From positions 1 to 27,885 of the IMG/VR virus record IMGVR_UViG_3300022932_000060: a stretch of DNA of 27,885 bases. One strand, written 5' to 3'. The stretch comes from a virus. Both the position numbers and the translations under genes were made by a program. The notes beneath the pieces are model-generated. The model did not search any database, was not told where the DNA came from, and saw only the letters and a program-made list of their open reading frames with translations. Shown piece by piece: positions 2,345-22,499 of the stretch (its first letter is position 1; each line of letters opens with the position of its first letter).

Positions 2345-3696
2345 TGGAGATTGAGCGCCGCATTCGCCCGTATCAGCAAGCATTCCACAGCTATCTCCTC
2401 AATACCCCTAAGGCCAGAGCTATCGAGATTGCCCATAGACGCTGGGGCAAAGACGAGATGGTTCTGGCTGCGACCTGTGAGCTTGCGCACCGCCGCGTAG
2501 GCTCTTACTGGCATTGCCTACCTGAGTTTGGCCAAGGCCGCAAAGCACTCTGGACAGCCGTTAACGCCCATACGGGCAAACGCCGCATCCATGAGGCATT
2601 TCCTCCAGAGATCTGCGACAACGTAAACGACCAGGAGATGTTCATACGTCTCAAGTGCGGATCAACATGGCAGATCATCGGTTCGGATCGCTATGACGCT
2701 ACAGTGGGCGCTGGCGTGGCGGGGATCGCCTATTCCGAGTGGGCATTGGCAAACCCTAGCGCATGGGCCTATCACCGGCCAATGCTGGAGGAAAACAACG
2801 GCTGGGCTGCATTTATCACAACCCCTCGTGGCCGCAATCATGCCTATAATATGTATCTCATGGCAAAGGATAACCCGCGATGGTTCGCTGAGGTTTCCAA
2901 TGTCCATGATACAGGCGCTCTCAGCCCTGAGCAGCTAGATGAAAGCCTCAAGGAATACATAGCCTTGTATGGTGATGACATCGGCAATGCGCAGTTCGAG
3001 CAGGAATATCTATGTTCGTTCAATGCCGCTATTCTGGGTGCGTTCTACGCTCGTGAGATGCTGGCTGTTCGCAAGGAAGGCCGGATTATCGCTGATCTGG
3101 AGCCGATAAAAGCACCGATCCATAGGGCTTGGGATATCGGGGTTAAGGATGATACAAGCATTTGGTGGTTCCAAGTGGTGGGAACTCAGGTGTTTATCCT
3201 TGATTGCTACTCACAGTCTGGGGTTGGTGTAGATCACTACGCTGACATCATCCACAAGAAGGCTGAGGAGCGTGGATGGGAGGATGGGATAGATTTTGTC
3301 CCTCACGACGCCAAGATTAAGGAATGGGGCACAGGCCGCACACGCGTTGAAACTATGCAGGAATTAGGCCTCCATCCCCAGCTAGTACCCCTCGCAAGCA
3401 AGATGGATGGCATCAACGCTGTACGCGTCACTCTTCCACGCTGCGTCTTCCATACAAGGTGCGAGGATCAGGGTATCTCGGCTCTGGAGCAGTACCGCAG
3501 AGAATGGGACGACGACAAGAAGGCGTTCAAGATCAGCGAAGTTCACGACTGGTCTAGCCATTTGGCCGACGCGTTCCGCTACTTTGCCATGTCCTGGCGC
3601 ACCATTCGAGAAAACGTTGTTGAAAGACACGAGCCGCCTCCTCCAGGCAAATTCCGCCCCCCTCCAATACCTACAGGGAGACAGGGGAGGGTGTAA
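2344..3696 (+). CDS. terL: Terminase large subunit (packaging ATPase and nuclease)
   Basis: The packaging motor protein that pumps DNA through the portal and cuts the concatemer. At 450 aa it fits the family. The N-terminal ATPase has a variant Walker A (HRRWGKD, residues 31-37), a Walker B-like strand ending in YSE (catalytic Glu at 132) and a coupling motif TTPRG (159-163). The C-terminal RNase H-like nuclease shows the three expected acidic residues at AWDIG (Asp264), PHDAK (Asp322) and HLADAFRY (Asp409). The C-terminal tail is Pro-rich (PPPPGKFRPPPIP). It starts at GTG overlapping the previous stop. Unusually, six tiny genes and a tRNA-like element separate it from the portal. Confidence 0.95.
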   Translation: MEIERRIRPYQQAFHSYLLNTPKARAIEIAHRRWGKDEMVLAATCELAHRRVGSYWHCLPEFGQGRKALWTAVNAHTGKRRIHEAFPPEICDNVNDQEMFIRLKCGSTWQIIGSDRYDATVGAGVAGIAYSEWALANPSAWAYHRPMLEENNGWAAFITTPRGRNHAYNMYLMAKDNPRWFAEVSNVHDTGALSPEQLDESLKEYIALYGDDIGNAQFEQEYLCSFNAAILGAFYAREMLAVRKEGRIIADLEPIKAPIHRAWDIGVKDDTSIWWFQVVGTQVFILDCYSQSGVGVDHYADIIHKKAEERGWEDGIDFVPHDAKIKEWGTGRTRVETMQELGLHPQLVPLASKMDGINAVRVTLPRCVFHTRCEDQGISALEQYRREWDDDKKAFKISEVHDWSSHLADAFRYFAMSWRTIRENVVERHEPPPPGKFRPPPIPTGRQGRV

Positions 3697-3723
3697 AAAC
3701 TTCTCACTATCCACTTTTCACTA

Positions 3724-3752
3724 TTGACTACTCTGGTTGATGGGTGTAGTTT
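3724..3752 (+). promoter_or_regulatory. Possible sigma70-like promoter
   Basis: TTGACT (3724-3729) and TAGTTT (3747-3752) are spaced by 17 bases in the 90-base gap after the terminase gene and before the next small gene. The -10 match is poor, so this is only a candidate for driving the tiny-gene chain. Confidence 0.25.
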
Positions 3753-3786
3753 CAAATCATCGAAACGCACACAACGGAGAATGAAA

Positions 3787-3960
3787 ATGACCGTAGAAGC
3801 CAAGAAGGAAACAATCCTCGCCTCCATCGAAGCTCGCGGTTGGTTTACCACCCAGATCTATTACAATGAAGCTGCCCAGCTTCGTGATGCTGGCTTGGTC
3901 AAGATCGGCACACGGTATTTCGTGGGCGGCAACGAGAAAATGGTATGGGTGGCGGCATGA
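3787..3960 (+). CDS. Small hypothetical protein (57 aa)
   Basis: GGAGA at 3776-3780 is six bases before the ATG at 3787; upstream in-frame starts (TTG 3724, ATG 3781) are therefore less likely. The leader ACGGAGAATGAAAATG is nearly identical to those at 471-485 and 800-815. The protein reads as helix, turn, helix, then a beta-hairpin (RDAGLVKIGTRYFVGGN), which could be a miniature winged-helix fold, but that is a guess from the pattern. It overlaps the next gene by ATGA. Confidence 0.6.
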   Translation: MTVEAKKETILASIEARGWFTTQIYYNEAAQLRDAGLVKIGTRYFVGGNEKMVWVAA

Positions 3961-4103
3961 GTAAATTGGTCAACCACGAGCAACTCAGGAGGGCGATGAC
4001 CGCCCTTCAAAGAGAGTTTATCCTAACCGACGATGAAGCCAGAAAAATGGCTTTGCTGGTAGCCGCTTCATACGGCATACTAGACCCAGAGGTCAGGAAA
4101 TGA
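3957..4103 (+). CDS. Small hypothetical protein (48 aa)
   Basis: Short frame delimited by ATGA overlaps at both ends (3957-3960 and 4100-4103), which is the main support. The product is helical and amphipathic (HEQLRRAMTALQREF, then DDEARKMALLVAASYGI). I recognise no family. It is one of six tiny coupled genes between the large terminase and the portal. Confidence 0.55.
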   Translation: MSKLVNHEQLRRAMTALQREFILTDDEARKMALLVAASYGILDPEVRK

Positions 4104-4444
4104 GCCTATACGACAGAATCCAGCGCAGCGATGCGCCTAAGAAATCCTCGCCGGGGGATAATACGACGCTGCCATGCAGAAATGCTGGGATTGCAGATGG
4201 CGGAATCCGGGTCGGGCAGTCGGACGCAGATGCCTCCTTGTCTGTTGTGAGAGAAGAGCAGTCAGAGAAGCCAGGAGTGGCAACGCAGCAGGTGAAAGCC
4301 CTGCACCTTCCCAAGCCAAAAATGGGCCGTCCCCGCACAGGCTACATCAAAGCAGAATACAACAGGCAATACAGCGCTGACTTACGCACCATCAAGCGCC
4401 TAGGGCTGGAGATAACGGTGGCAGAGTGGAGGAAGACGAAATGA
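4100..4444 (+). CDS. Small protein with AT-hook-like basic motif (114 aa)
   Basis: It is coupled to the preceding and following genes by ATGA overlaps. The first ~70 residues are low-complexity and polar, likely disordered. The C-terminal ~40 carry PKMGRPRTGYIK (about residues 73-84), with a Gly-Arg-Pro core like an AT-hook, followed by a basic helix (EYNRQYSADLRTIKRLGLEI). Similar GRPR-plus-basic-helix tails occur in small DNA-associated proteins of phages and plasmids. DNA binding is inferred from this motif only. Confidence 0.55.
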   Translation: MSLYDRIQRSDAPKKSSPGDNTTLPCRNAGIADGGIRVGQSDADASLSVVREEQSEKPGVATQQVKALHLPKPKMGRPRTGYIKAEYNRQYSADLRTIKRLGLEITVAEWRKTK

Positions 4445-4683
4445 ACCTCTGTGATTGCGAACTAAGTCATAACGGTTTGGGCCGATCAGGTCGTGAGTGT
4501 GATTGCCCCGCTGGAGACGGCGCTAGACCATGGGACACAGAGAGGGCGCTAAGAGTTGCGCTATTTGAATTCTACTCAACAGCGCATGAGACTTGGGCCA
4601 ACATTGATGCTAGGCGGGCAGTCGAGGGTATCACTCAATTTGAGCGCCCCTCAGGTAAACAATATCGGGAGAGTTTGAAATGA
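4441..4683 (+). CDS. Small cysteine-containing hypothetical protein (80 aa)
   Basis: The ATG at 4441 has a strong upstream GGAGGAAG at correct spacing and overlaps the preceding stop as ATGA; an ATG at 4426 lies inside that site and is rejected. The N-terminal ~25 residues hold two Cys-x-Cys pairs (CDCEL at residues 4-8 and CDCPAG at 20-25), a plausible metal knuckle. The rest is a helical region (RALRVALFEFYSTAHETWANIDARRA). No family recognised. Confidence 0.55.
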   Translation: MNLCDCELSHNGLGRSGRECDCPAGDGARPWDTERALRVALFEFYSTAHETWANIDARRAVEGITQFERPSGKQYRESLK

Positions 4684-4862
4684 GCATTACACCTGCACTA
4701 TTCGTCAAGCACTCACCAGCCATAAGCTCTCACGCTTTCGAATGGCTAGATGTTGAGCTTGCGGACCGGAAAGCCATGATGGACGTTGAGAACGCGGAAT
4801 ACGTGTTGTTCAAATACGTCCGGCCCAATATCGGGCGCAAATCAAAGGATGAGACGAGATGA
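4680..4862 (+). CDS. Small hypothetical protein (60 aa)
   Basis: It starts with an ATGA overlap at 4680 and ends with another at 4859. The sequence has a helical centre (HAFEWLDVELADRKAMMDVENAEYVLFKYV) and a basic tail (GRKSKDETR). No family recognised. The continuous chain of coupled starts from 3957 to 4862 indicates a single polycistronic message. Confidence 0.55.
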   Translation: MSITPALFVKHSPAISSHAFEWLDVELADRKAMMDVENAEYVLFKYVRPNIGRKSKDETR

Positions 4863-4963
4863 GTGAGATACCGGAAGACGTGATGAAAGAGGCTAAGGAC
4901 GCCTTCAAGAGCGTAGTTTCGCCCAATGGGCAAAGAGTTTGGAATGGTTGGCAGAGTGGTTGA
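4859..4963 (+). CDS. Possible tiny protein (34 aa) running into tRNA-like element
   Basis: An ATGA overlap at 4859 continues the coupled chain. The frame gives 34 residues and stops at 4961-4963, about 22 bases inside the tRNA-like element that begins at 4942. The first 20 residues form an amphipathic helix (IPEDVMKEAKDAFKSVV). The C-terminal residues are dictated by the tRNA-like 5' half, so either the gene was truncated by this element or the frame is only a remnant. Confidence 0.4.
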   Translation: MSEIPEDVMKEAKDAFKSVVSPNGQRVWNGWQSG

Positions 4964-5036
4964 ATGCAGGGACCGGCGAAGGCCCCACGGCACTAGATCA
5001 AAAGTAGTCGCGTACGTTCGAATCGTACACCATTCC
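4942..5036 (+). tRNA. Class II tRNA-like element (Ser-like body, abnormal anticodon loop)
   Basis: GAATGGT (4942-4948) pairs perfectly with ACCATTC (5029-5035). The A-box region TGGCAGAGTGGT (4949-4960) with D-stem GCA/TGC (4951-4953 and 4965-4967) is Ser-like. A T-arm of GTACG, loop TTCGAAT, CGTAC (5012-5028) includes a perfect B box. A long variable region with an ACTA/TAGT stem marks class II. The anticodon arm (4969-4985) has an A-G mismatch and the loop lacks the invariant U33, so no anticodon can be assigned with confidence. G4941 could pair with C5036. It may be a degenerate tRNA, a tRNA mimic or an att-related relic. Confidence 0.5.
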
Positions 5037-5067
5037 AAAGCCATCCGGGGAGCCAATCTCGGGTAAG

Positions 5068-5104
5068 AGCCTCGCAGCCGCGTCGTTACGGTTGTGGGGC
5101 TTTT
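5068..5104 (+). terminator. Intrinsic terminator between tRNA-like element and portal operon
   Basis: A 13-bp stem (5068-5080 with 5089-5101, including three G-U pairs) around an 8-base loop is followed by a short T run (5101-5104). It lies just downstream of the tRNA-like element and upstream of the portal promoter, so it probably ends the upstream small-gene/terminase transcript. Confidence 0.7.
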
Positions 5105-5112
5105 GTCATTGA

Positions 5113-5141
5113 TTGACGCGCAACGAGTGTTACTTTATAAA
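5113..5141 (+). promoter_or_regulatory. Sigma70-like promoter for portal/late operon
   Basis: TTGACG (5113-5118) and TATAAA (5136-5141) are separated by exactly 17 bases, close to the bacterial consensus. The start of transcription would fall near 5148, only about 16 bases before the portal ATG. It follows a terminator and overlaps a perfect palindrome, as expected for a regulated operon promoter. Confidence 0.65.
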
Positions 5142-5147
5142 GTAACA
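5128..5147. promoter_or_regulatory. 20-bp perfect palindrome, probable operator over the -10 box
   Basis: TGTTACTTTA at 5128-5137 is followed directly by its reverse complement TAAAGTAACA at 5138-5147. The TATAAA of the promoter lies across the centre, so a dimeric protein bound here would block RNA polymerase. The regulator is not identified, and I did not find a second copy in this window. Confidence 0.65.
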
Positions 5148-5163
5148 AACCTAGCGGGTGCAC

Positions 5164-7470
5164 ATGGCCGATAACGAAGCAACGGAACAAGCTGACTATG
5201 ATCCCTCCGTCGACAAGGAGAGTTCGAAGGCTTGGCTAAACCTCATCACCGATGCTGAGAAGGCCCTACAGGACTGGCAGGACCGCGCCGACAAGATTGA
5301 TAAGATCTATGCAGACGGCAACCGTCTATCCGCCACCGCTGACCGTCAGTTCTCGCTATTCTGGGCTAATCTCCAGGTTCTAGCGCCGTCAGTGTACTCC
5401 CGGCCTCCTGTGCCTGTTGTCGTTCCCCGCTTTCGCAACCGTGATCCTATCCGCCGAACCGCTTCCGAGCTTCTGGAGCGTGTCACCAACGTCCAGTTCG
5501 AAATGGAGGACGTAGACTCCACTATGCGCTTGATCCGTGATGATCTGGTGAGGGTTGGCCGTGGCGTTGCATGGGTTAGGTATGAGGACAAGCTAAAGCG
5601 TGAGAAGAAAAACGAACGCCTCTGTCTTGAGCATGTAGATCGACGCGACTTCCTCACCTCTCCAGCCCGTAAATGGGAAGAGGTTGATTGGGTTGCCCGC
5701 CGTGCTTGGCTCTCGAAAGAGGAAATGAAGGAGCGCTTCGAAGAGTATAGCCAAGATGCATACGAGTCAGCAGCTTATAACTCCGTCAAGCGTGATGAGC
5801 GAGACAGAGGCCATCGTGACCCTATCGAGAAGGCTGGCGTCTGGGAAATCTGGTGCAAGTCTGAAGACCGCGTTGTCTGGGTAACGGATGGCGTTGAGGA
5901 TCTGCTGGATGATGATAAGCCGCATCTCGACCTTGACAAGTTCTTTCCCTGTCCCAAGCCCGCCTATTCCACGGTACAGCCGGGGTCGCTCGTTCCTGTC
6001 CCTGATTACGTCTATTACCAAGACCAGCTAGCGGAGATCAATGAGCTTACGGGCCGCATCTCTGCGCTTGCCTCTGCTGTCCGCGTCAAGATGTTCTATC
6101 CTGGCGGAGGAGAGAAGGGCGACGTTCTAGAGACTGCAATGCGGATGAATGACGACTCCGCAATGATGATACCTGTCTCGAATTGGGCTGCGTTCGGTTC
6201 AGGTTCGGCGGATATCCTCGTTCCATTCCCCATCGACATGATAGCCAACACGATCAAGGTTTGCGTAGAGATCCGCAAGCAGCTTATCGATGACGTTTAC
6301 CAGATTACCGGCCTATCGGACATCATGCGCGGCCTCACTAATGCTAGCGAGACACTAGGCGCTCAGGAGCTAAAGAGCCAATACGGTTCCGTTCGTATCC
6401 GTGACAAGCAGGACGAGTTGGTTCGCATAGCCCGTGACCTTACGCGCCTCAGTGCAGAGGTGATGGCTGAGAACTTCGACAAGAAGACCTTGCTTGACAT
6501 GTCTCAGATGGATCTGCCCACGGATGCGGAGATCAAGAAGCAGGTCAAGGAAATCACCGACCAGCAGAAAGAGATTGCTGATGCTGCCAAGAAGCAAGTA
6601 GCCGATGCTCAAAAGAACCCGCAGATTATGGCGCAGGCGCAAGCCAATCCCGAAGAAGCTCAGGCCATGCTCCAACAGCTTCAAGAGCAAGCAAACCAGC
6701 AGATACAGCAGCTAGGCGAACAGGCTCAGAAGGTTGGCGAGACGGTTACGATTGATCAGGTCAAAAAGCTTCTGGACGATCAGCGGCTAAGACCATTCAT
6801 GTTCGATATCGAGACAGACTCGACTATTGCTCCTGACGAGAATGCTCAAAAGCAGCGGGCAACCGAGTTTATTACGGCTGTTGGTGGGTTCCTCAATCAG
6901 GCTATCTCTGCCGTCCAGCTTGTTCCTCAGACGGCCACTCTCATGGCGGACACGTTGAAATACGTTGCTAGCCAGTTCAGGGCAGGCCGTGAGCTTGACG
7001 CGACGATTGATGAATTTGCAGACCAGATGAAGGAAATGGCCTCTGCTCCCAAGCCAAATCCAGAAGCCGACGCAGCCCAAGCACAGCAGCAAGTTGAGGC
7101 GCAGAAGCTAGCGATGGAACAACAGAAGCTTGCAATGCAGCAGGAAGCCCATAAGGCCGACATTGAGACAAAGCAGGCCATCGCCAACGCTGATATCCAA
7201 AACAAAAGGGCTTTGACAGAGCATGAGGCTATGCTTTTGGATCGCAAATACGGCGAGGAAATTCAGTCTGTCATGGTCAAGAGGGCCGAGGGACAGGAAC
7301 AGCATTCCCAAAACATGCAGAAAAACACGCTTGAGATTGAAAAACTCAGGCTTTCAAACGAAAATATTGCTATAAAGGGTATCAACGACCAAGTTAGCGC
7401 ACAACAGCAGCTTGTGTTGAACGCGGAAAGTGCGGCTCAGAAGGCTAGCGAAAAGAAGGACGTAGACTAA
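5164..7470 (+). CDS. Portal protein (P22-like, about 768 aa)
   Basis: The dodecameric portal forms the DNA channel at one head vertex, docks the terminase and nucleates head assembly. Length, gene order (terminase, portal, scaffold, capsid) and the N-terminal wing region (WANLQVLAPSVYSRPP, then LIRDDLVRVGRGVAWVRYED) match long podovirus portals. Residues ~457-534 and ~629-762 are strongly Gln/Ala-rich predicted coiled coils, consistent with the long C-terminal barrel of P22-type portals. The start is taken as ATG 5164; GTG 5158 is an alternative two codons upstream, and neither has a strong Shine-Dalgarno. The stop overlaps the next gene as TAATG. Confidence 0.9.
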   Translation: MADNEATEQADYDPSVDKESSKAWLNLITDAEKALQDWQDRADKIDKIYADGNRLSATADRQFSLFWANLQVLAPSVYSRPPVPVVVPRFRNRDPIRRTASELLERVTNVQFEMEDVDSTMRLIRDDLVRVGRGVAWVRYEDKLKREKKNERLCLEHVDRRDFLTSPARKWEEVDWVARRAWLSKEEMKERFEEYSQDAYESAAYNSVKRDERDRGHRDPIEKAGVWEIWCKSEDRVVWVTDGVEDLLDDDKPHLDLDKFFPCPKPAYSTVQPGSLVPVPDYVYYQDQLAEINELTGRISALASAVRVKMFYPGGGEKGDVLETAMRMNDDSAMMIPVSNWAAFGSGSADILVPFPIDMIANTIKVCVEIRKQLIDDVYQITGLSDIMRGLTNASETLGAQELKSQYGSVRIRDKQDELVRIARDLTRLSAEVMAENFDKKTLLDMSQMDLPTDAEIKKQVKEITDQQKEIADAAKKQVADAQKNPQIMAQAQANPEEAQAMLQQLQEQANQQIQQLGEQAQKVGETVTIDQVKKLLDDQRLRPFMFDIETDSTIAPDENAQKQRATEFITAVGGFLNQAISAVQLVPQTATLMADTLKYVASQFRAGRELDATIDEFADQMKEMASAPKPNPEADAAQAQQQVEAQKLAMEQQKLAMQQEAHKADIETKQAIANADIQNKRALTEHEAMLLDRKYGEEIQSVMVKRAEGQEQHSQNMQKNTLEIEKLRLSNENIAIKGINDQVSAQQQLVLNAESAAQKASEKKDVD

Positions 7471-7961
7471 TGGGCGCTCCCGTCACCCTGGTATCAGCAG
7501 GCAATCAGGCAAACCCCGCTGGCGCTCCATACAGCGCCGCCAATCCTCTGCCAGTGGCGAGCTATAGTTCGTCCGGTACTGAGAATACGGCTCTTCCTCC
7601 AGGCCGAGCCCCCGCCGCCGCCTCTGTTCCTGTTGTCTCCAGTACTGAGGATTTCGCAAGGCTTGGCTCTATCGCCTTTGGTGGTGGTACAGCTACGGTA
7701 ACCTCTGTAACATCTGCTGCTGCGACCACACCTTTAAAAGCTGCCAACACTGCCCGAACCGGCATCACCATTGCAAATGATAGCACTTCGATCCTTTACG
7801 TTCTCATGGGTACAGGTACGGCAAGCGCGACGAACTACAGCTTTGCTCTCCCGGCCAAGGGAACCGTTCCGTCTGATCGCACCATCTCAGGCTATACAGG
7901 GGCAATTCAAGGCTTCTGGGTTTCCGCAAATGGTTTCGCAATGGTCACTGAGGTTGCATAA
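7470..7961 (+). CDS. Probable virion structural/decoration protein (163 aa)
   Basis: It starts in a TAATG overlap with the portal stop. The first ~65 residues are Ala/Pro/Ser-rich and likely extended. The second half (GITIANDSTSILYVLMGTG, then YTGAIQGFWVSANGFAMVTEV) is all-beta and resembles small structural proteins found beside portal genes in many phages. I infer a virion surface or head-associated role from composition and position; no precise family name can be given. Confidence 0.55.
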   Translation: MGAPVTLVSAGNQANPAGAPYSAANPLPVASYSSSGTENTALPPGRAPAAASVPVVSSTEDFARLGSIAFGGGTATVTSVTSAAATTPLKAANTARTGITIANDSTSILYVLMGTGTASATNYSFALPAKGTVPSDRTISGYTGAIQGFWVSANGFAMVTEVA

Positions 7962-8392
7962 TGCCTACTTCCATAACGCCGGTCCCTGTTGACCCAAACT
8001 CTATCCCGCTCCCAGCCATAGCTATGCCTCCTGGCGTAGCTGACACTGGTACACTGGGCACTAGCCCCCGGTATGCCTTGGGTGACCACACTCATGCTTC
8101 GAAAGCCCGCAAAGAAATAAAAGTAATGGGTTCGGCTGCGTCTACATATACTTGGACATACCCCGTCTCATTCGGCTCTGGAGTCGTCCCTATCGTCTCT
8201 GCAATCGTTCAGGTTGCGAGCGGCAATACGGATTTGTTCAACGTCCAGATCGTAGGCACACCGAGTAATACGCAGTGCACGTTCCAGATTAACCGCGTTT
8301 CCGCTGGCCTTTTGGCGCTTCTGCTTGGCGCATTGTCGCTTAATCCTACGCCTGTAGCCGCAACTCTTCACTGTATTGCATTGGAGCCATAA
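7961..8392 (+). CDS. Probable virion appendage protein with GDHTH motif (143 aa)
   Basis: TAATG-coupled at both ends. Residues 39-48 contain ALGDHTHASK, a short motif frequent in phage tail-appendage and collar-like proteins, where it ends the N-terminal attachment segment. The following ~95 residues are beta-rich (ASTYTWTYPVSFGSGVVPIVSAIV) with a hydrophobic Leu/Ala stretch near the C-terminus. It is likely a structural adaptor for the downstream SGNH protein; this is inference from coupling and motif. Confidence 0.55.
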   Translation: MPTSITPVPVDPNSIPLPAIAMPPGVADTGTLGTSPRYALGDHTHASKARKEIKVMGSAASTYTWTYPVSFGSGVVPIVSAIVQVASGNTDLFNVQIVGTPSNTQCTFQINRVSAGLLALLLGALSLNPTPVAATLHCIALEP

Positions 8393-8571
8393 TGGCTGGA
8401 GAGCTAACCACATTTGCTCTGTCTCAGGGCATCGGCCTAGTCACGGGAGCGGGGGTGCCTGACACGATCGTCATTGACGGCAAAACCTACAATCTCCTCA
8501 CCAGCCGCACGACCGGCGAATACTTAACCAGCCGCACGACCGGCGAGCCAATCTATGGGAGAGCCGCATAA
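8392..8571 (+). CDS. Small protein with TSRTTGE tandem repeat (59 aa)
   Basis: Fully enclosed by TAATG overlaps (8390-8394 and 8569-8573), which strongly supports translation. The C-terminal third consists of two copies of a 9-residue unit, TSRTTGE-YL and TSRTTGE-PI, produced by a near-exact DNA repeat with a 27-base period. No family recognised. It may be a linker or minor virion component of the cassette ending in the SGNH hydrolase. Confidence 0.6.
   Translation: MAGELTTFALSQGIGLVTGAGVPDTIVIDGKTYNLLTSRTTGEYLTSRTTGEPIYGRAA
8500..8546 (+). repeat. Tandem direct repeat, 27-bp period
   Basis: The 20-base unit ACCAGCCGCACGACCGGCGA occurs at 8500-8519 and again at 8527-8546. The period is a multiple of three, so the repeat expands the protein (TSRTTGE) without shifting frame. 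It looks like a recent slippage duplication. Confidence 0.9.
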
Positions 8572-10091
8572 TGCCTACCATTCTCACAAATGACCTCGAT
8601 TTCAAACGCCGTACTGCGAAGCTGCCGCTCGTAGGTTTGCTTGACACGGTCAAGTCCGACCAGTCGCAGATATGGACTATCGTGAGTGACAGCACGGGAG
8701 TTCAGGACAGCACGACACGTTGGCCTTTTCTCGTAGCCACAGCACAGGCAACCGAGCTTGCGTCCAAAGCCAAACGCTTGGAGTTTCGGCAGCTTCGCGG
8801 TACGGCTGAACCCACAATTTTTGAATATTACAAGCCCATCTTGCTATCGGCGGGTGCTGGACCTCGAGGCATTCAATTTTCGTCGGGCACACCACGTTCG
8901 AGGTTCATTTCCACTAACAATGTCATTGCGCGCACCGGCGAAGACATCGAAATTCTCATTGCTTTTGATCCGCTGAACAACTCTCCTGCCGCGTTCGCTG
9001 CAATCGGGGGGCAGCCGGGGGCTGGCGCTGTAGCGGCTTCGTCCCCGAGTTCGCGCGGGCCGTATATAACGCAGGAGACATCCGGTAATTACAGGCTCAA
9101 CTGGAATGAGAACGGAACCGGGACTGCTGGTTCGTTTGCAGACGGGGCAGGTCGTTGGGCCGAATGGACTGCCGCTCAGTTAGGCGTAGTGCCGGGCACT
9201 CCAGTCATCGTAAAATTCACTCTTGACGCGGATAATGGCTCTGGTGGTTGGACGGCAAAAGCCTACCCGATGACTTACAGTTCCTACTTCTCAAGCTCAT
9301 CAGTTAGCAATCCAGAGGTGCAGGTCTGGGGGACGGGGCTTGCCCCCACGACTACCAGTGTCTCGCCTACTGCGGCAGTAACTACCGTAAATAAGTCGGT
9401 TGCGAACATCGAGATCGGCGCCAGAGGTGATGTCACCAGCCCCTTTTATGGCACGGTTTATAAGCTTCAAATTCATGACGGCATTGACGGCCCGCTTATC
9501 CATAGCCCAAACATTGACGATTTCACCCGGTCTACACCAACAGCAACTAGCGTTATGGTCGGGTCTTCAACTCTATACGTCTACAATGGCGCAGCGGCGG
9601 GTAAGAATTTCTCGTGGTTCGCTGGTACTGCTGCGCCCGTCGATGCATTGCGCCCTTCAAGAATTTTCATACCTGGGTCTGCACTCACGACTATTTCAAC
9701 GGGCCACAACGAAGCGTTGCTTTTTGGGCTGGACATCAAGACTGCAATTGAAACGTTTATCACAACGACGACTTTGAGGTCCCCTTGCCAAGCCCTACAT
9801 ATGATCAAGCAAAACCCGGAATTGGACCTCACGTCCACACCCTCCGCCCAATACGCGACTGCTAAACTGCATGGTCAGCGCCAAGCGCAGATGGCAAACG
9901 TGGTTGCGATGAAGGGCGGTGTGGTTTCAGATGTTTATACTGCCTTTGAGACGCACCCAGACTGGAACCCAGCGGGCAATAGATTGATGAGTAGCACAGA
10001 CCCAGCGGTACACCCTTCCGCGCCAGACGGTTACACACTGGAGGCGTCGATTGTGGCTGTGGATTTCGGATTGGTCATACCGTTCATCTGA
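8571..10091 (+). CDS. SGNH/GDSL-type hydrolase with inserted lectin-like domain, virion-associated (506 aa)
   Basis: Residues 35-43 (IWTIVSDST-G) carry the block I nucleophile motif as SDS (Ser41). Residues 378-380 (GHN) match block III, and DPAVH (Asp477 and His481), followed by Pro, matches block V. Together these give an SGNH esterase/deacetylase core. About 250-300 residues between block I and block III are beta-rich and end in a LamG/concanavalin-like pattern (GTVYKLQIHDGIDGPLIHS), suggesting a sugar-binding insertion. The likely role is to bind and de-esterify host surface polysaccharide during adsorption, though substrate is unknown. It is TAATG-coupled to three small structural genes and lies between portal and scaffold, an uncommon site for an enzyme. 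No signal peptide is seen. Confidence 0.75.
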   Translation: MPTILTNDLDFKRRTAKLPLVGLLDTVKSDQSQIWTIVSDSTGVQDSTTRWPFLVATAQATELASKAKRLEFRQLRGTAEPTIFEYYKPILLSAGAGPRGIQFSSGTPRSRFISTNNVIARTGEDIEILIAFDPLNNSPAAFAAIGGQPGAGAVAASSPSSRGPYITQETSGNYRLNWNENGTGTAGSFADGAGRWAEWTAAQLGVVPGTPVIVKFTLDADNGSGGWTAKAYPMTYSSYFSSSSVSNPEVQVWGTGLAPTTTSVSPTAAVTTVNKSVANIEIGARGDVTSPFYGTVYKLQIHDGIDGPLIHSPNIDDFTRSTPTATSVMVGSSTLYVYNGAAAGKNFSWFAGTAAPVDALRPSRIFIPGSALTTISTGHNEALLFGLDIKTAIETFITTTTLRSPCQALHMIKQNPELDLTSTPSAQYATAKLHGQRQAQMANVVAMKGGVVSDVYTAFETHPDWNPAGNRLMSSTDPAVHPSAPDGYTLEASIVAVDFGLVIPFI

Positions 10092-10174: not shown

Positions 10175-10522
10175 TTGCGCCAAAGATACTGTAGAAACTG
10201 CTTCAACTGGCATCAGGTCGATGAATGGCCGCTGGAGTGCTATCCAGTTCAGCCAGCCAGATCAGATGCCTTCTCATTCCCTAACGTAATCTCCGACACA
10301 ACCGAACCGCTGGAACACCCCTTGACGGGTAAGCACTACACCAGCAAGCGGGAGTTTTCGAGGATTACCAAGGAAAGAGGCTACGAGGAAGTTGGCAACG
10401 ATTCTAACCGGCTCAAGCCCCCACCGTCTCCGAAGTCAGACAAAGCAGCAATCAAAGAATCCGTTCAGAAAGCCGTAGCGCGGTTCAAGAATGGCGAACG
10501 AGTCAACCTATCAGGAAGGTGA
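10175..10522 (+). CDS. Small conserved-type phage protein with CxxC motif (115 aa), TTG start
   Basis: AGGAAG about 10163-10168 lies at good spacing before TTG at 10175, and no ATG or GTG gives a better start. The N-terminus (RQRYCRNCFNWHQ) holds a Cys-x2-Cys knuckle; the middle is polar and the C-terminal 30 residues are basic and helical. Proteins beginning with a similar CxxC-W segment occur near scaffold genes in related phages, from memory. It may be a small structural or assembly factor; function unknown. Confidence 0.6.
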   Translation: MRQRYCRNCFNWHQVDEWPLECYPVQPARSDAFSFPNVISDTTEPLEHPLTGKHYTSKREFSRITKERGYEEVGNDSNRLKPPPSPKSDKAAIKESVQKAVARFKNGERVNLSGR

Positions 10523-10525
10523 CGT

Positions 10526-10768
10526 ATGCTAACTAACCATGGACAGCTAGATTGTTTAATCTCTTGCTTTCTGGACGACCGTAAGAGGTGCGACCTCATT
10601 GAAGAAGGCGCGAAATTGAAAATAAAGGCGGCAGCAATATGGGCTACAGGTAGTGAGCGCTCCCTCATCGCTGCCATCGAACAAGAATACAATAAGCTGC
10701 ATCGCCCACGAGGCTCTCTGATGACTCCTTGGGGTAAATCTGTCCTTATTAAGAGAACGAAAGCCTAA
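10526..10768 (+). CDS. Small hypothetical protein (80 aa)
   Basis: Strong ribosome binding site (AGGAAGGTG) 3 bases after the previous stop. The product is mixed alpha-helical and basic with two cysteines (residues 10 and 14, plus one at 22) and a helix (AAIWATGSERSLIAAIEQEYNKL). No family recognised. Located just upstream of the scaffold gene, from which it is separated by 18 bases. Confidence 0.6.
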   Translation: MLTNHGQLDCLISCFLDDRKRCDLIEEGAKLKIKAAAIWATGSERSLIAAIEQEYNKLHRPRGSLMTPWGKSVLIKRTKA

Positions 10769-10786: not shown

Positions 10787-11935
10787 ATGTCAGACGCACT
10801 AGCACCAGTCCCCACAGAAGCAGTCATTGAGCCGCAGGCACCAAAGACGCCTGAACTCGGGAGCCAAACCCCTGTCGCTGAAAAGCCAGAGGTAAAGGCT
10901 GAGCCTGAGAAGAAGGAAGTTCCCAAGTCCAACTCCGATGCTCTCAAGGCCGCAAGTGAACGGTTGAAGGCAAAGGCTGAAGCTGAATCAAAGGCTCCCA
11001 AGGCTAAAGAAGATACTCCCAAGGTAACTACCAAGGCAGACACTGAAGCTTCCAAGGTAGAGGCCAAGCCAGACAAGACACGAGATGAGACTGGTAAATT
11101 CCAGTCCACCTATGCGGAGGCGAAAGCTCCCGTAGCGCAGGAGCAGAAGGTTGAGACTGCCGCGCCTGAACGGCGTGTTTCGCTGGAGGCTCCTGCGCGG
11201 TTCAACGAGAACGGTAAGCGCGATTGGGCAACCACTCCCGATAGCGTCAAGGAAGAGGTCCTCCGCTCTCATCGTGAGCTTGAGGAAGGCCACAAGAAAT
11301 ACAAGGAAAGCGCAGACCGCTACGAACTTCTAAGGGAATATGATGACCTAGCCCGAAAGAATGGCCGGGAAGGCGTCCACGAGTCTCTAAAGCAGATCCG
11401 TGATATCGAGGATACATTCGCCCGCGACCCAATCCAGGGTCTCAAGAAGATCACTGATCACTTCGGGATTAGCCTACCAGCCGTCGCAGCGCATATTATG
11501 GGGCAGAACCCCAATCAGCAGGTGCAGGAGGCACATTCTCGCGTTCGGGAGCTTGAAGCCAAGATCCAGCAGATGGAAACGGCAGCTAAAGTTCCGTCGA
11601 TTGTGGAACAGTTTTTCACAGAACACGAAGATGCGAAAGATTATTCCGACGATATTGCTTTTGTGCTGGAACAAGGTATAGTCAAAGACCTAGATGCTGC
11701 TTACCAATATGTTAAGCGCTTCAAGCCGCAGGCCTCAAACGCAGCGGCATCCGGCCAGCCGGTCATCCCGGCAGAAAGTGCAGTGGCTCAAACCCAGGCA
11801 CCGGCTTTAAACCCAGCAGGTTCTAAATCGGTGTCAGGAGCGCCAACCGGGGGTGTAAGCCCCGCAGCAAAGCATCCTGTCCCAGCAAACAACCGTGAAG
11901 CACTCCAACGCGCGATGGCTCGCGCTAGAGCATAA
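10787..11935 (+). CDS. Scaffolding protein (382 aa)
   Basis: Placed directly before the major capsid gene with a good AGGAAGG site, and composed as scaffolds are. Residues 1-140 are Ala/Lys/Glu/Pro-rich and disordered, 150-280 are highly helical (SHRELEEGHKKYKESADRY; REAHSRVRELEAKIQ-like coil at ~245-260), then a flexible Ala/Pro/Ser segment, and a basic C-terminal helix (REALQRAMARARA, 370-382) suited to binding coat protein. It would direct procapsid assembly and leave or be recycled before packaging. No protease domain is seen. The assignment rests on composition and synteny. Confidence 0.75.
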   Translation: MSDALAPVPTEAVIEPQAPKTPELGSQTPVAEKPEVKAEPEKKEVPKSNSDALKAASERLKAKAEAESKAPKAKEDTPKVTTKADTEASKVEAKPDKTRDETGKFQSTYAEAKAPVAQEQKVETAAPERRVSLEAPARFNENGKRDWATTPDSVKEEVLRSHRELEEGHKKYKESADRYELLREYDDLARKNGREGVHESLKQIRDIEDTFARDPIQGLKKITDHFGISLPAVAAHIMGQNPNQQVQEAHSRVRELEAKIQQMETAAKVPSIVEQFFTEHEDAKDYSDDIAFVLEQGIVKDLDAAYQYVKRFKPQASNAAASGQPVIPAESAVAQTQAPALNPAGSKSVSGAPTGGVSPAAKHPVPANNREALQRAMARARA

Positions 11936-11944
11936 GGACAGACA

Positions 11945-12973
11945 ATGCCTATTAACCCGTTGAGCCACTATCAGCAGGTTCTTTCTATGGCCTTGGAAGA
12001 TCGTTCCAGAGGCTATGAAGACCTTGTATCGAACCAGATTGCACTCTTTGCGCTGATGAAGCGTAAGGGTCTAATCAAGAACTATTCCGGCCCACGTATC
12101 CGCGAAACCCTCCAGATCGGCAAGCCGACCGGCCAGTGGTATTCCGGCTATGACTTCCTCGACAATCCTCCGGTAGAACTCTTCAATGATGCCTACTGGA
12201 CGCCTAAGATGCTGGCTGTTCCGATCTCCCTCACTAATGAGGAAATCCTGAACAACGCTGGCGAAGCTCAGATCATGGACGTTCTGGAGTCCTATATGGA
12301 CGTTGCAGAAACGACCCTGGCTGAGACGCTGGAAACCGGCCTTTACTCTGACGGCACGGCCAACAATGGCAAGCAGATCACCGGCCTTGCGGCTGCTGTT
12401 CCGATTGTCACCAATACGGGCACATACGGCGGCATCGACCGTGGTACGTATGCCCTGTGGCGGACCACCACCTTCAACGCCCAGACCATGAACACTGCAA
12501 TTGGCACTCAGGTTAACGCGGCCACTATCCGCCCATTCCTGACCCAGATCTTCCTTGCCCGTTCTCGCGCTGGCCGTTCTGCCGATATTCTGCTGATGTC
12601 CAATGAACACTATGCCGCATACGATGCCTCGCTCGTAGCTGCACAGCGTATTACTGAGCGCAGCGGCACCGGGACCATGAACGCTCTTGGCTTCAATAAC
12701 CTCGCCTATGTCGGCGCTGGTCGCGAAGTCTCGGTTGTCATGGGTGGCGGTATCGGCTCGGCCATCCCGGCAAACACCACGTTCGGCCTTGAGTCTTCCT
12801 CGCTGCGTCTCCGCGTTAACCCGCTGCGCAACATGGATAAGCTCTTCCCTGGTGACGGCATGATGCCTATTAACCAGGACGCGATTGCGCAGTTCATTGG
12901 TTGGATGGGCGAGCTGACGATGACCAATCCACTTTTCAACTGGCGCTTCTACGACTCGGATCCAGCTACGTGA
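11945..12973 (+). CDS. Major capsid protein (342 aa, HK97-fold type)
   Basis: Shell subunit of the head. It follows the scaffold by 9 bases with an AAGGA site and shows the highly regular codon use typical of an abundant protein. The N-terminal helix (SHYQQVLSMALEDRSRGYEDLVSNQ) is followed by a beta segment (RIRETLQIGKPTG), and conserved-looking patterns VPISLTNEEILNN, ETLETGLYSDGT and ILLMSNEHYAAY. The C-terminal half (GREVSVVMGG, then NPLFNWRFY) resembles coat proteins of P22-like and other podoviruses of ~340 aa. The fold is inferred from these patterns. Confidence 0.85.
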   Translation: MPINPLSHYQQVLSMALEDRSRGYEDLVSNQIALFALMKRKGLIKNYSGPRIRETLQIGKPTGQWYSGYDFLDNPPVELFNDAYWTPKMLAVPISLTNEEILNNAGEAQIMDVLESYMDVAETTLAETLETGLYSDGTANNGKQITGLAAAVPIVTNTGTYGGIDRGTYALWRTTTFNAQTMNTAIGTQVNAATIRPFLTQIFLARSRAGRSADILLMSNEHYAAYDASLVAAQRITERSGTGTMNALGFNNLAYVGAGREVSVVMGGGIGSAIPANTTFGLESSSLRLRVNPLRNMDKLFPGDGMMPINQDAIAQFIGWMGELTMTNPLFNWRFYDSDPAT

Positions 12974-17092: not shown

Positions 17093-18079
17093 ATTGTTAG
17101 CTCGCCAAAAGCTCCCGATCCAGTAGCAACTGCTAATGCTCAGTCCGGCATGAACCGCGATACTGCTATCTCGCAGATGCAGCTGAATGGCGTAAACCAA
17201 ATAACGCCAGATGGCAATCTGATGTATGAGCAGACGGGCAGTAATTCATTTGTAGACTCGCAGGGGCGGACGGTCTCCACGCCTCAGTTCACGGCCACAA
17301 CCACCCTATCTCCCCAGCAGCAGGCGATCAAGGATCAGACGGACGCGGCTAGCCTTAACCTCGGAACGCTTGCCAACAAGCAGTCAGCAGCCATTGGCGA
17401 GCAACTTTCCAAGCCGTTCCAGTTCAACAATGACGATGCTAGCAACTGGTCTTATGATCTCGCCTCCCAGCGGATTCTTCCCCAGCAGGAGAAGGCGGGT
17501 GCTGCTCTCCGTACCCAGCTCATCTCGTCCGGTATCCGCCCCGGAACGGCTGCTTACGATAGCGAAATGGCGCGACTGACGAACGCAAACACGGATCAAT
17601 TGAACCAACTTGCGTTGACTGGACGAGGGCAGGCGTACCAGGAGCAGTTGTCTCAGTACAACAACCCAATCAATACGATTTCCGCCCTCATGTCCGGTTC
17701 TCAGGTCGCAAACCCGCAGTTCGCTCAAACTCCTCAGTCTAGTGTGGCGGGCGTCGATTACACGGGCCTTGTTAACCAGCAATATCAAGCCAAAGTGCAG
17801 AACCAAAACGCTATGCTCGGGGGCCTTTTCGGGTTAGCTGGAGCAGGCATCAAGGCCATTCCTTTCTCTGATAGGCGCTTGAAAAAGGACATCGTTCCTA
17901 TGGGCCACAAGAAAGGCCTTCCTTGGTATGGCTTCCGTTATGTATGGGATGATGCCTCTTCGCCTCTTCGCTATTCGTTCATGGCGCAGGATGTGCTACC
18001 CGTCCGTCCTGAAGCCGTGCATCTTGATCCGTCAGGCTTCTATCGCGTAAACGTTGATATGATCTTGGAGGCTGCGTAA
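17093..18079 (+). CDS. Virion/ejection-type protein with C-terminal S74-like chaperone (328 aa), probable ATT start
   Basis: The frame is open from 17063 but holds no ATG, GTG or TTG until 17150. Translating from ATT 17093 (ribosome site GGCAGG at 17081-17086) adds SSPKAPDPVATANAQSG, which matches the N-terminal style of this phage family. The central region (TLSPQQQAIKDQTDAASLNLGTLANKQ) is helical and Gln-rich. The C-terminus (from about residue 258 of the 328) has FSDRRLKKDI, the Ser-Asp...Lys signature of the S74 intramolecular chaperone (Ser and Lys five apart), but only ~70 residues follow. S74 normally trimerises and trims spikes; here it sits on a probable internal or tail-tip protein. 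TAATG coupling links it to the next gene. Confidence 0.75.
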   Translation: MVSSPKAPDPVATANAQSGMNRDTAISQMQLNGVNQITPDGNLMYEQTGSNSFVDSQGRTVSTPQFTATTTLSPQQQAIKDQTDAASLNLGTLANKQSAAIGEQLSKPFQFNNDDASNWSYDLASQRILPQQEKAGAALRTQLISSGIRPGTAAYDSEMARLTNANTDQLNQLALTGRGQAYQEQLSQYNNPINTISALMSGSQVANPQFAQTPQSSVAGVDYTGLVNQQYQAKVQNQNAMLGGLFGLAGAGIKAIPFSDRRLKKDIVPMGHKKGLPWYGFRYVWDDASSPLRYSFMAQDVLPVRPEAVHLDPSGFYRVNVDMILEAA

Positions 18080-21668: not shown

Positions 21669-22499
21669 ATGCCACGTGACTCAGGTGGGAATGTCGTTGT
21701 TAACCGACAGCCAGCGGTCTCCGGTCAGACTGTATTGGCTGAACAGGTTAATGTGCCATTCGCTGATATTCAGGCAATGCTTAACCTTGTCGATTGGCGG
21801 GATGGTATCAGCCCGTGGACAGGAACGCACAACGCTAACAGCTTCAAGCTAACTGGCCTTGCTGATGGTGTGGCGCTCACTGATGCTGCGACGGTAGGCC
21901 AGATTGGCAATAAGCTGGACAAGAACGCATCTGGAGGTGTGAGCTTTGCCTCATCCTATGCCGCCTCTGCGACTGATCTATCCAAGCATATAGCCCTGTA
22001 CGGAACCACATACGGGCTATCGGTTACGGAAAATAGCCAGAATTACGTATCTGTTGCTGCTCACTCCTATTATGCAGGCTCTACGCTCACCTTTTCCATC
22101 TCCGCTTCTGGGGTTGCCAAGTCACTAGGCGATCTACAGGCCAACACAGCGGTATTCAGCACTGATGGCAACGCTACAGGGTCTATCTGGAGCGCATGGG
22201 GCTCTACCTCTGCTTTTGCGGCTATTGGCGCTCGTATCGAAACCAGGGGCGCTGCGCTATCTCGGGATTTCAACGCCAATGCAAACGCGGGCGAGGTTGG
22301 AACCTATGCGATGCTCCGCAAGACGACCGCTGGAGCCGTTGGACCTACGGCACTCGTAGCAGGCGCGGAACTTCAGTGGACGAACACAGCCGCAGACAAT
22401 ACCGGGCTTAACGTAGGCGCTGGGGTATGGATGTGCATGGGTTATAGCGCAGGGAACGGCGCTCCGGGTTCGGCAACGCTGTTCAAGAGGAATTCGTAA
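21669..22499 (+). CDS. Tail fibre / appendage protein (276 aa)
   Basis: Starts after a 36-base gap with an AAGGA site. The N-terminus (PRDSGGNVVVNRQPAVSGQTVL, then NVPFADIQAMLNLVDWRDGISPWTGTHNANSFKLTGLADG) is the classic start of phage fibre proteins that bind the tail, including the N-xxxxI-TGLA-like 'KLTGLADGVALTDAATVGQ' segment. The C-terminal ~190 residues are beta-rich and repetitive, as for a trimeric fibre. Overlaps the next gene (TAATG), which is a larger spike. Confidence 0.75.
   Translation: MPRDSGGNVVVNRQPAVSGQTVLAEQVNVPFADIQAMLNLVDWRDGISPWTGTHNANSFKLTGLADGVALTDAATVGQIGNKLDKNASGGVSFASSYAASATDLSKHIALYGTTYGLSVTENSQNYVSVAAHSYYAGSTLTFSISASGVAKSLGDLQANTAVFSTDGNATGSIWSAWGSTSAFAAIGARIETRGAALSRDFNANANAGEVGTYAMLRKTTAGAVGPTALVAGAELQWTNTAADNTGLNVGAGVWMCMGYSAGNGAPGSATLFKRNS

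Follow-up and report, generated by a model that had tools for sequence, protein, structure and literature searches.

Why should a short-tailed phage carry, among its head genes, a tightly coupled run of four genes that ends in a candidate SGNH hydrolase? The run in question occupies positions 7470-10091 of the IMG/VR virus record IMGVR_UViG_3300022932_000060 (27,885 nucleotides; hereafter the window, meaning the whole 27.9-kb stretch that was analyzed), which belongs to a podovirus-type (short-tailed) phage with relatives among rhizobial phages. We consider these genes, here termed cA to cD, to be a mobile host-adsorption module lodged in a cargo slot between the portal gene and a conserved gene designated g10175, and assign this reading a probability of about 0.6. 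It draws on gene order and coupling, SGNH and LamG homology, variability of the slot, the reappearance of the cassette in phages of other backbones, and a backbone-specific N-terminal tag, all of which were computed. The slot and its contents are as follows:

5158..7470, + strand: portal protein, bordering the slot on the left (phrog_12082 portal, E 4.6e-183; 66% to Rhizobium phage RHph_I3_18)
7470..7961, + strand: cA, 163 amino acids (aa); N-terminal tag of ~30 aa, LPPGRA...EDFAR linker, C-terminal beta-sandwich of ~90 aa
7961..8392, + strand: cB, 143 aa; GDHTH motif and a weakly Gp53-like_C or lectin-like domain
8392..8571, + strand: cC, 59 aa; N-terminus MAGELT...LSQG, with TSRTTGE repeated
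8571..10091, + strand: cD, 506 aa; probable SGNH hydrolase with a LamG-like insert at roughly residues 90-310 and candidate active-site residues S41, G344, N380 and D477/H481
10175..10522, + strand: g10175, conserved gene (phrog_21669), right border of the slot

An earlier note, made from the DNA alone, had described four consecutive open reading frames of 163, 143, 59 and 506 aa linked by TAATG directly after the portal; the coordinates, lengths and junctions were all verified, with TAATG found at every junction of the cassette, the portal/cA junction included. The same signal also occurs at 18077, 20044 and 22497 in the window, and since other late genes thus share it, TAATG coupling was rejected as a special mark of the cassette. 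Nor does GC content support recent import, being 53-58% in the cassette as against 53% in the window. The same note had placed the insertion between portal and scaffold. The cassette does follow the portal, but both g10175 and a small gene at 10526-10768 precede the scaffold-position gene, and the insertion point is accordingly the portal/g10175 junction. Homologues of g10175 come after the portal in RHph_I3_18, Bradyrhizobium phage ppBjS10J-1, contigs L007, L010 and L011, and most other relatives, and the idea that the cassette was inserted as a unit is supported.

The behavior of this junction was surveyed by collecting relatives of the portal from viral contigs (numbered with the prefix L) and genomes, with genes called as mechanical open reading frames and gaps measured in 61 non-redundant loci. 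The distance from the portal to g10175 ranges from an overlap up to 5.6 kb (up to 6.1 kb in redundant copies), exceeding 400 bp in 24 of the 61 loci and 900 bp in 16 (26%). At control junctions, gaps above 900 bp are found in 0/59 cases for g10175/scaffold, 0/55 for scaffold/major capsid protein, 1/48 for adaptor/neck and 5/54 for terminase/portal. Most of the Rhizobium prophages examined have no insert in the slot. In L007, the major capsid protein of which is 98% identical to that of the window, the slot contains a Phage_RBD_prop protein (a receptor-binding propeller); between these two phages, homology fades gradually past the first codons of cA and returns at g10175. Elsewhere, the slot is occupied by an SGNH hydrolase of different sequence (L048, E 1e-15), a protein with BNR_4 and Laminin_G_3 domains (L028), a tail lysozyme (L070) and, in the more distant L106, a fiber protein of the GP4 gp80 type (E 2.5e-30). 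A cargo slot lies between portal and g10175, and it resembles a docking point at which host-attachment modules, encoded here in the midst of head genes, can be exchanged. The adsorption role that had been proposed for the cassette also gains support from related phages, in which proteins that bind receptors or act on polysaccharide occupy this position.

The slot further harbors small proteins of 59-79 aa with GGxPVT/GTPV repeats, which stand alone in L011 (6872-7111), L029 (3296-3490), L046 and L065 (10235-10414), and GGxPVT repeats also occur inside longer proteins in the slots of L028, L010 and L040, those of L028 and L010 being lectin or propeller proteins; these repeat proteins are possibly another docking module. 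A putative DNA methyltransferase, judged from its sequence and unlikely to be part of a virion, is found in the slot of L066 (9685-10776).

The cassette recurs on other backbones. Contig L196 is podovirus-like, has an unrelated portal and was found via the N-terminus of cC. Downstream of its endolysin genes, at 3141-5415, it carries the whole order cA-cB-cC-SGNH, joined in two places by TAATG; its cA-type gene has the same LPPGRA linker and a different C-terminal domain. A second SGNH gene lies at 2-1492 of this contig. The prophage L012 (6563-10560) has a partial cassette, comprising cA, an unrelated gene of 160 aa and a fusion in which a MAGELT N-terminus precedes a protein that has SGNH motifs but no Pfam SGNH match. 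The neighbors of this module include a tail tape-measure-like protein and tail fibers, and the usual placement in a tail-fiber gene cluster applies to L012 and not to the window cassette. Adjoining the L012 module, on the other strand, is a gene for an O-acetyltransferase, which places an acylating function beside a putatively deacylating one.

Comparison of the first ~30 residues encoded by the first gene yields pairwise scores of 21-108 within the portal-slot phages and of 12-23 against L012 or L196, with slight overlap between the ranges. Further, the first gene of L007 has its C-terminal domain in common with L196 (67%) and its N-terminus in common with the portal-slot group. On this sequence evidence, the N-terminus of the first gene appears to follow the backbone and the rest of it the module, and we infer that the cassette is a mobile module for adsorption and deacylation whose docking tag is specific to the backbone.

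Relatives of the C-terminal ~90-aa domain of cA (window 7689-7958) were confirmed in 94 viral-contig stretches, and the domain corresponds to no Pfam family and no described PHROG. AlphaFold (AF2) models it as a beta-sandwich, with a predicted local distance difference test (pLDDT) score of 92-98 per block from residue 71 onward. This fold matches uncharacterized phage proteins; among PDB structures there is no match at E <= 0.001, general beta-sandwiches being all that was recovered. A match by sequence of the cA profile to the PDB entry for viral non-structural protein 9 (E 0.11) was rejected as chance. The cA-type domain is typically C-terminal, and its gene often immediately precedes one that starts with MPLY, MPLF or MPYF; in many phages the gene directly downstream is fiber-like.

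The GDHTH motif of cB, at residues 41-45, had been regarded as typical of tail appendages. The motif is present, and two homologues keep an HTH/HEH motif, but its value as a marker is weak: cB scores 13.7 bits against Gp53-like_C (Pfam PF21882), below the cut-off of 24.9 (E 0.095), the L007 homologue matches over the same region at E 0.17, and the match of cB to a PHROG lectin has an E of 0.049. Its homologues lie in the same slot of L007 (47%) and in L196 (29%, E 5e-6), and the cB profile has no match among PDB chains. As for cC, a separate homologue is found in L196, and a cC-like N-terminus forms part of the fusion in L012. Short repeats recur in these small proteins, namely TSRTTGE in the window cC (8392-8571), SRVDGT/SRVDET in the L196 cC and RITDTGD/RITNTGD in L011.

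The SGNH signatures earlier read in cD are at the positions claimed, namely S39-D40-S41, G378-H379-N380 and D477-xxx-H481. A comparable set of three motifs arose in 1 of 20,000 shuffles of the protein, as scored with a pattern requiring D-x-x-H-P, which cD itself fails because its block V, DPAVHP, has one residue more than the DxxHP of related hydrolases. A translated search (tblastn) with cD leads to Arthrobacter phage hydrolases, and in an alignment of cD with Shoya gp25, Casserole gp17 and the L013 protein, DSTG, G344, HNE and the D, H and P of block V are invariant. S41 of cD, in SDSTG, aligns with the invariant DSTG (GDSTG) of its relatives in block I; N380, in GHNE, falls in block III; and D477/H481 align with the catalytic pair of the relatives, with the one extra residue relative to DxxH. 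G344 of block II is assigned as the oxyanion-hole glycine by alignment, and the region of Shoya gp26 that matches block II opens a Lipase_GDSL_2 match at profile position 36. Both Casserole gp17 (2e-11) and Shoya gp26 (1.7e-9), which is free of the insert, pass the cut-off for Lipase_GDSL_2, and the latter matches cD on either side of the insert, at residues 11-55 (weak by itself) and 309-460 (E 1e-6). A profile of the four-sequence cD family additionally finds the GDSL lipase PDB 3P94 (E 9e-4); the cD sequence by itself matches no PDB chain. The lectin-like block that had been noted between motifs I and III proves homologous to the LamG-like domains of actinophage minor tail proteins. Membership of the SGNH superfamily is hence supported by homology, and cD is probably a divergent SGNH hydrolase in which a LamG-like domain interrupts the sequence after block I. 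A direct scan of viral contigs with cD alone gave no relative, and a second, alignment-based scan gave only contigs already known. Because there is no significant similarity between cD and either the SGNH protein gp14 of Sinorhizobium phage phiM5 (phiM5_14) or that of L196, these three probably represent separate acquisitions.

A mechanism can be proposed from these features. The first protein, cA, would dock on the virion via its short N-terminal tag and present the beta-sandwich, thereby acting as a virion adaptor, with cB and cC connecting the parts or forming a small fiber and cC possibly serving as connector or anchor for the enzyme. Carried on cB/cC, cD could bind host surface polysaccharide with its LamG-like insert and remove acyl (probably O-acetyl) groups at its SGNH site, and such deacylation might allow the phage to bind to the O-antigen or exopolysaccharide layer or to get through it. 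In this scheme the proteins would be present in virions and form a complex, cD would be catalytically active on its predicted substrate, and the module would sit at the head, neck or tail; gene position alone is no evidence of position in the virion. A more specific version, which we regard as tentative and rather doubtful, would reserve the slot for adsorption modules that can be exchanged: the MGAxVTLVxxG-type tag of the first protein would dock on the portal or neck of this phage lineage, enzymes and receptor-binding domains would be displayed near the head-tail junction, and an exchange would replace all that follows the tag.

Several observations weigh against a module of this kind. The DxxxH spacing of block V in cD is non-canonical, and cD alone has no Pfam SGNH match at E <= 1. 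Structure prediction, proposed earlier as a check, neither favors nor disfavors the fold: the AF2 model of cD, from an alignment of 5 sequences, has a mean pLDDT of 41 and was not used; too few sequences account for this low confidence, and so we infer the fold. The slot also takes genes that are not necessarily virion parts, such as a macro domain in L040 (10271-10834) and an unclassified 142-aa protein in RHph_I3_18. Further, a conventional fiber gene at 21669-22499 means that the cassette need not be the sole adsorption device. Another reading is that cD is an enzymatically dead SGNH-LamG lectin that only binds polysaccharide, for which the extra residue in DPAVHP and the presence of SDS in place of GDS in block I could be cited. 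However, the serine, the block II glycine, the asparagine and the histidine are all retained at the aligned invariant positions, and the one-residue change sits in a loop that may tolerate it; loss of activity is improbable.

The non-structural genes in the slot, such as that in L040, would also suit a moron, an accessory set that is not built into virions and that might, for example, serve lysogenic conversion or superinfection exclusion by altering acylation of host polysaccharide from inside the lysogen. The relatives do include temperate phages and prophages, and the O-acetyltransferase adjoins the related module in the L012 prophage. Nevertheless, the close coupling of translation to that of the portal, a late gene, the cA-type domains directly upstream of fiber-like genes in many phages, the LamG insert common to minor tail proteins and the predominance of virion-type cargo in the annotated occupied slots render this alternative unlikely. 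A lysis or cell-wall accessory role, with the esterase attacking O-acetylated peptidoglycan as the phage leaves or enters the cell, could account for the adjacency of the module to endolysin genes in L012 and L196 and for the tail lysozyme in the L070 portal slot. Yet the window cassette stands among head genes with no lysis gene nearby, and the LamG-like insert, together with the propeller and BNR cargo of relatives, suggests glycan recognition, so that such a role appears very improbable.

The rest of the window fits the phage type, its gene set comprising terminase, portal, a scaffold-position gene, the major head protein, an SU10-type adaptor, a neck/amidase protein, an S74 structural protein, a glucosaminidase protein, and fiber and endolysin genes. 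The closest cultured relative found is RHph_I3_18 (portal 66%, major capsid protein 90%). Several small open reading frames lie at the terminase/portal junction (window 3724-5158), which varies among the relatives as well (the 5 of 54 cases above 900 bp). The other features referred to above are:

10526-10768: small gene between g10175 and the scaffold-position gene
10787..11935, + strand: scaffold-position gene (phrog_25516, virion structural protein)
11945..12973, + strand: major head protein (phrog_9953, E 1.2e-80; 98% to L007)
21669-22499: conventional fiber gene, with ~100 N-terminal residues related to RHph_I3_18 and the remainder diverged

Host-range genes of short-tailed phages are usually sought to the right of the tail genes. 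If a mobile adsorption module does occupy the portal/g10175 slot, there would be a second, highly variable adsorption slot in the head operon, and genes of this kind would be missed in host-range predictions for rhizobial and related podoviruses. Docking can be tested through the shared N-terminal tag, and the cA beta-sandwich, which has no Pfam family, is common in phages and often directly precedes fiber-like genes, could mark unannotated adsorption proteins.

The proposed apparatus had been called undescribed, which is only partly right. In other phages, experiments have established that virion SGNH enzymes deacetylate polysaccharide (PMC9569702 and PMC8471582, with G7C as cited in them), and fibers or tailspikes with esterase activity have likewise been reported (PMC13123978, PMC11654681). 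G7C gp63.1, Possum gp66 (PMC9569702), Aristophanes gp41 (PMC8471582) and Klebsiella prophage fibers (PMC13123978) combine SGNH de-acylation at adsorption with separate attachment parts, and the same is proposed for cD. They differ in being tail fibers or tailspikes with their own attachment region, whereas the window has four small coupled genes after the portal and an SGNH domain split by a LamG-like insert. The split architecture itself is shared with Arthrobacter phage Shoya gp25 and Casserole gp17 (24-28% identity), but these are encoded on other backbones, after tail/lysin or capsid genes, and no cA or cB profile matches are listed among the open reading frames of their loci.

As to position, fiber genes lie generally to the right of the core genes in related podovirus lineages (PMC10386132), and the portal slot is therefore unusual. 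It is not unique, as phiM5 (gp14) and Pseudomonas phage tf (gp63) keep SGNH genes close to the major capsid gene, although after it and not between portal and scaffold as in the window. The annotation of phiM5_14 says that it was detected in particles, and that of tf_63 calls it a particle protein; such annotations of SGNH virion proteins next to head genes, along with the well-documented SGNH deacetylases (PMC9569702, PMC8471582, PMC13123978), limit the earlier claim. Adjoining the tf SGNH particle protein are two small tf proteins that have the cA-type fold and were identified on the basis of organism name and a match in length; the sequence of one, tf_61, matches the cA profile weakly. Another odd position is seen in Mesorhizobium phage Lo5R7ANS, an autographivirus, where an SGNH esterase gene lies between the small and large terminase genes (L199:5905-7155). 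Portals homologous to that of the window occur in RHph_I3_18, ppBjS10J-1 and Myxococcus phage Mx8, and the first two also have the order g10175-scaffold-major capsid protein, with a single small gene in the slot as against the four-gene cassette of the window. SGNH adsorption enzymes, also beside head genes, are already known, and the features of interest in the present system are the slot, the tag and the unnamed beta-sandwich domain.

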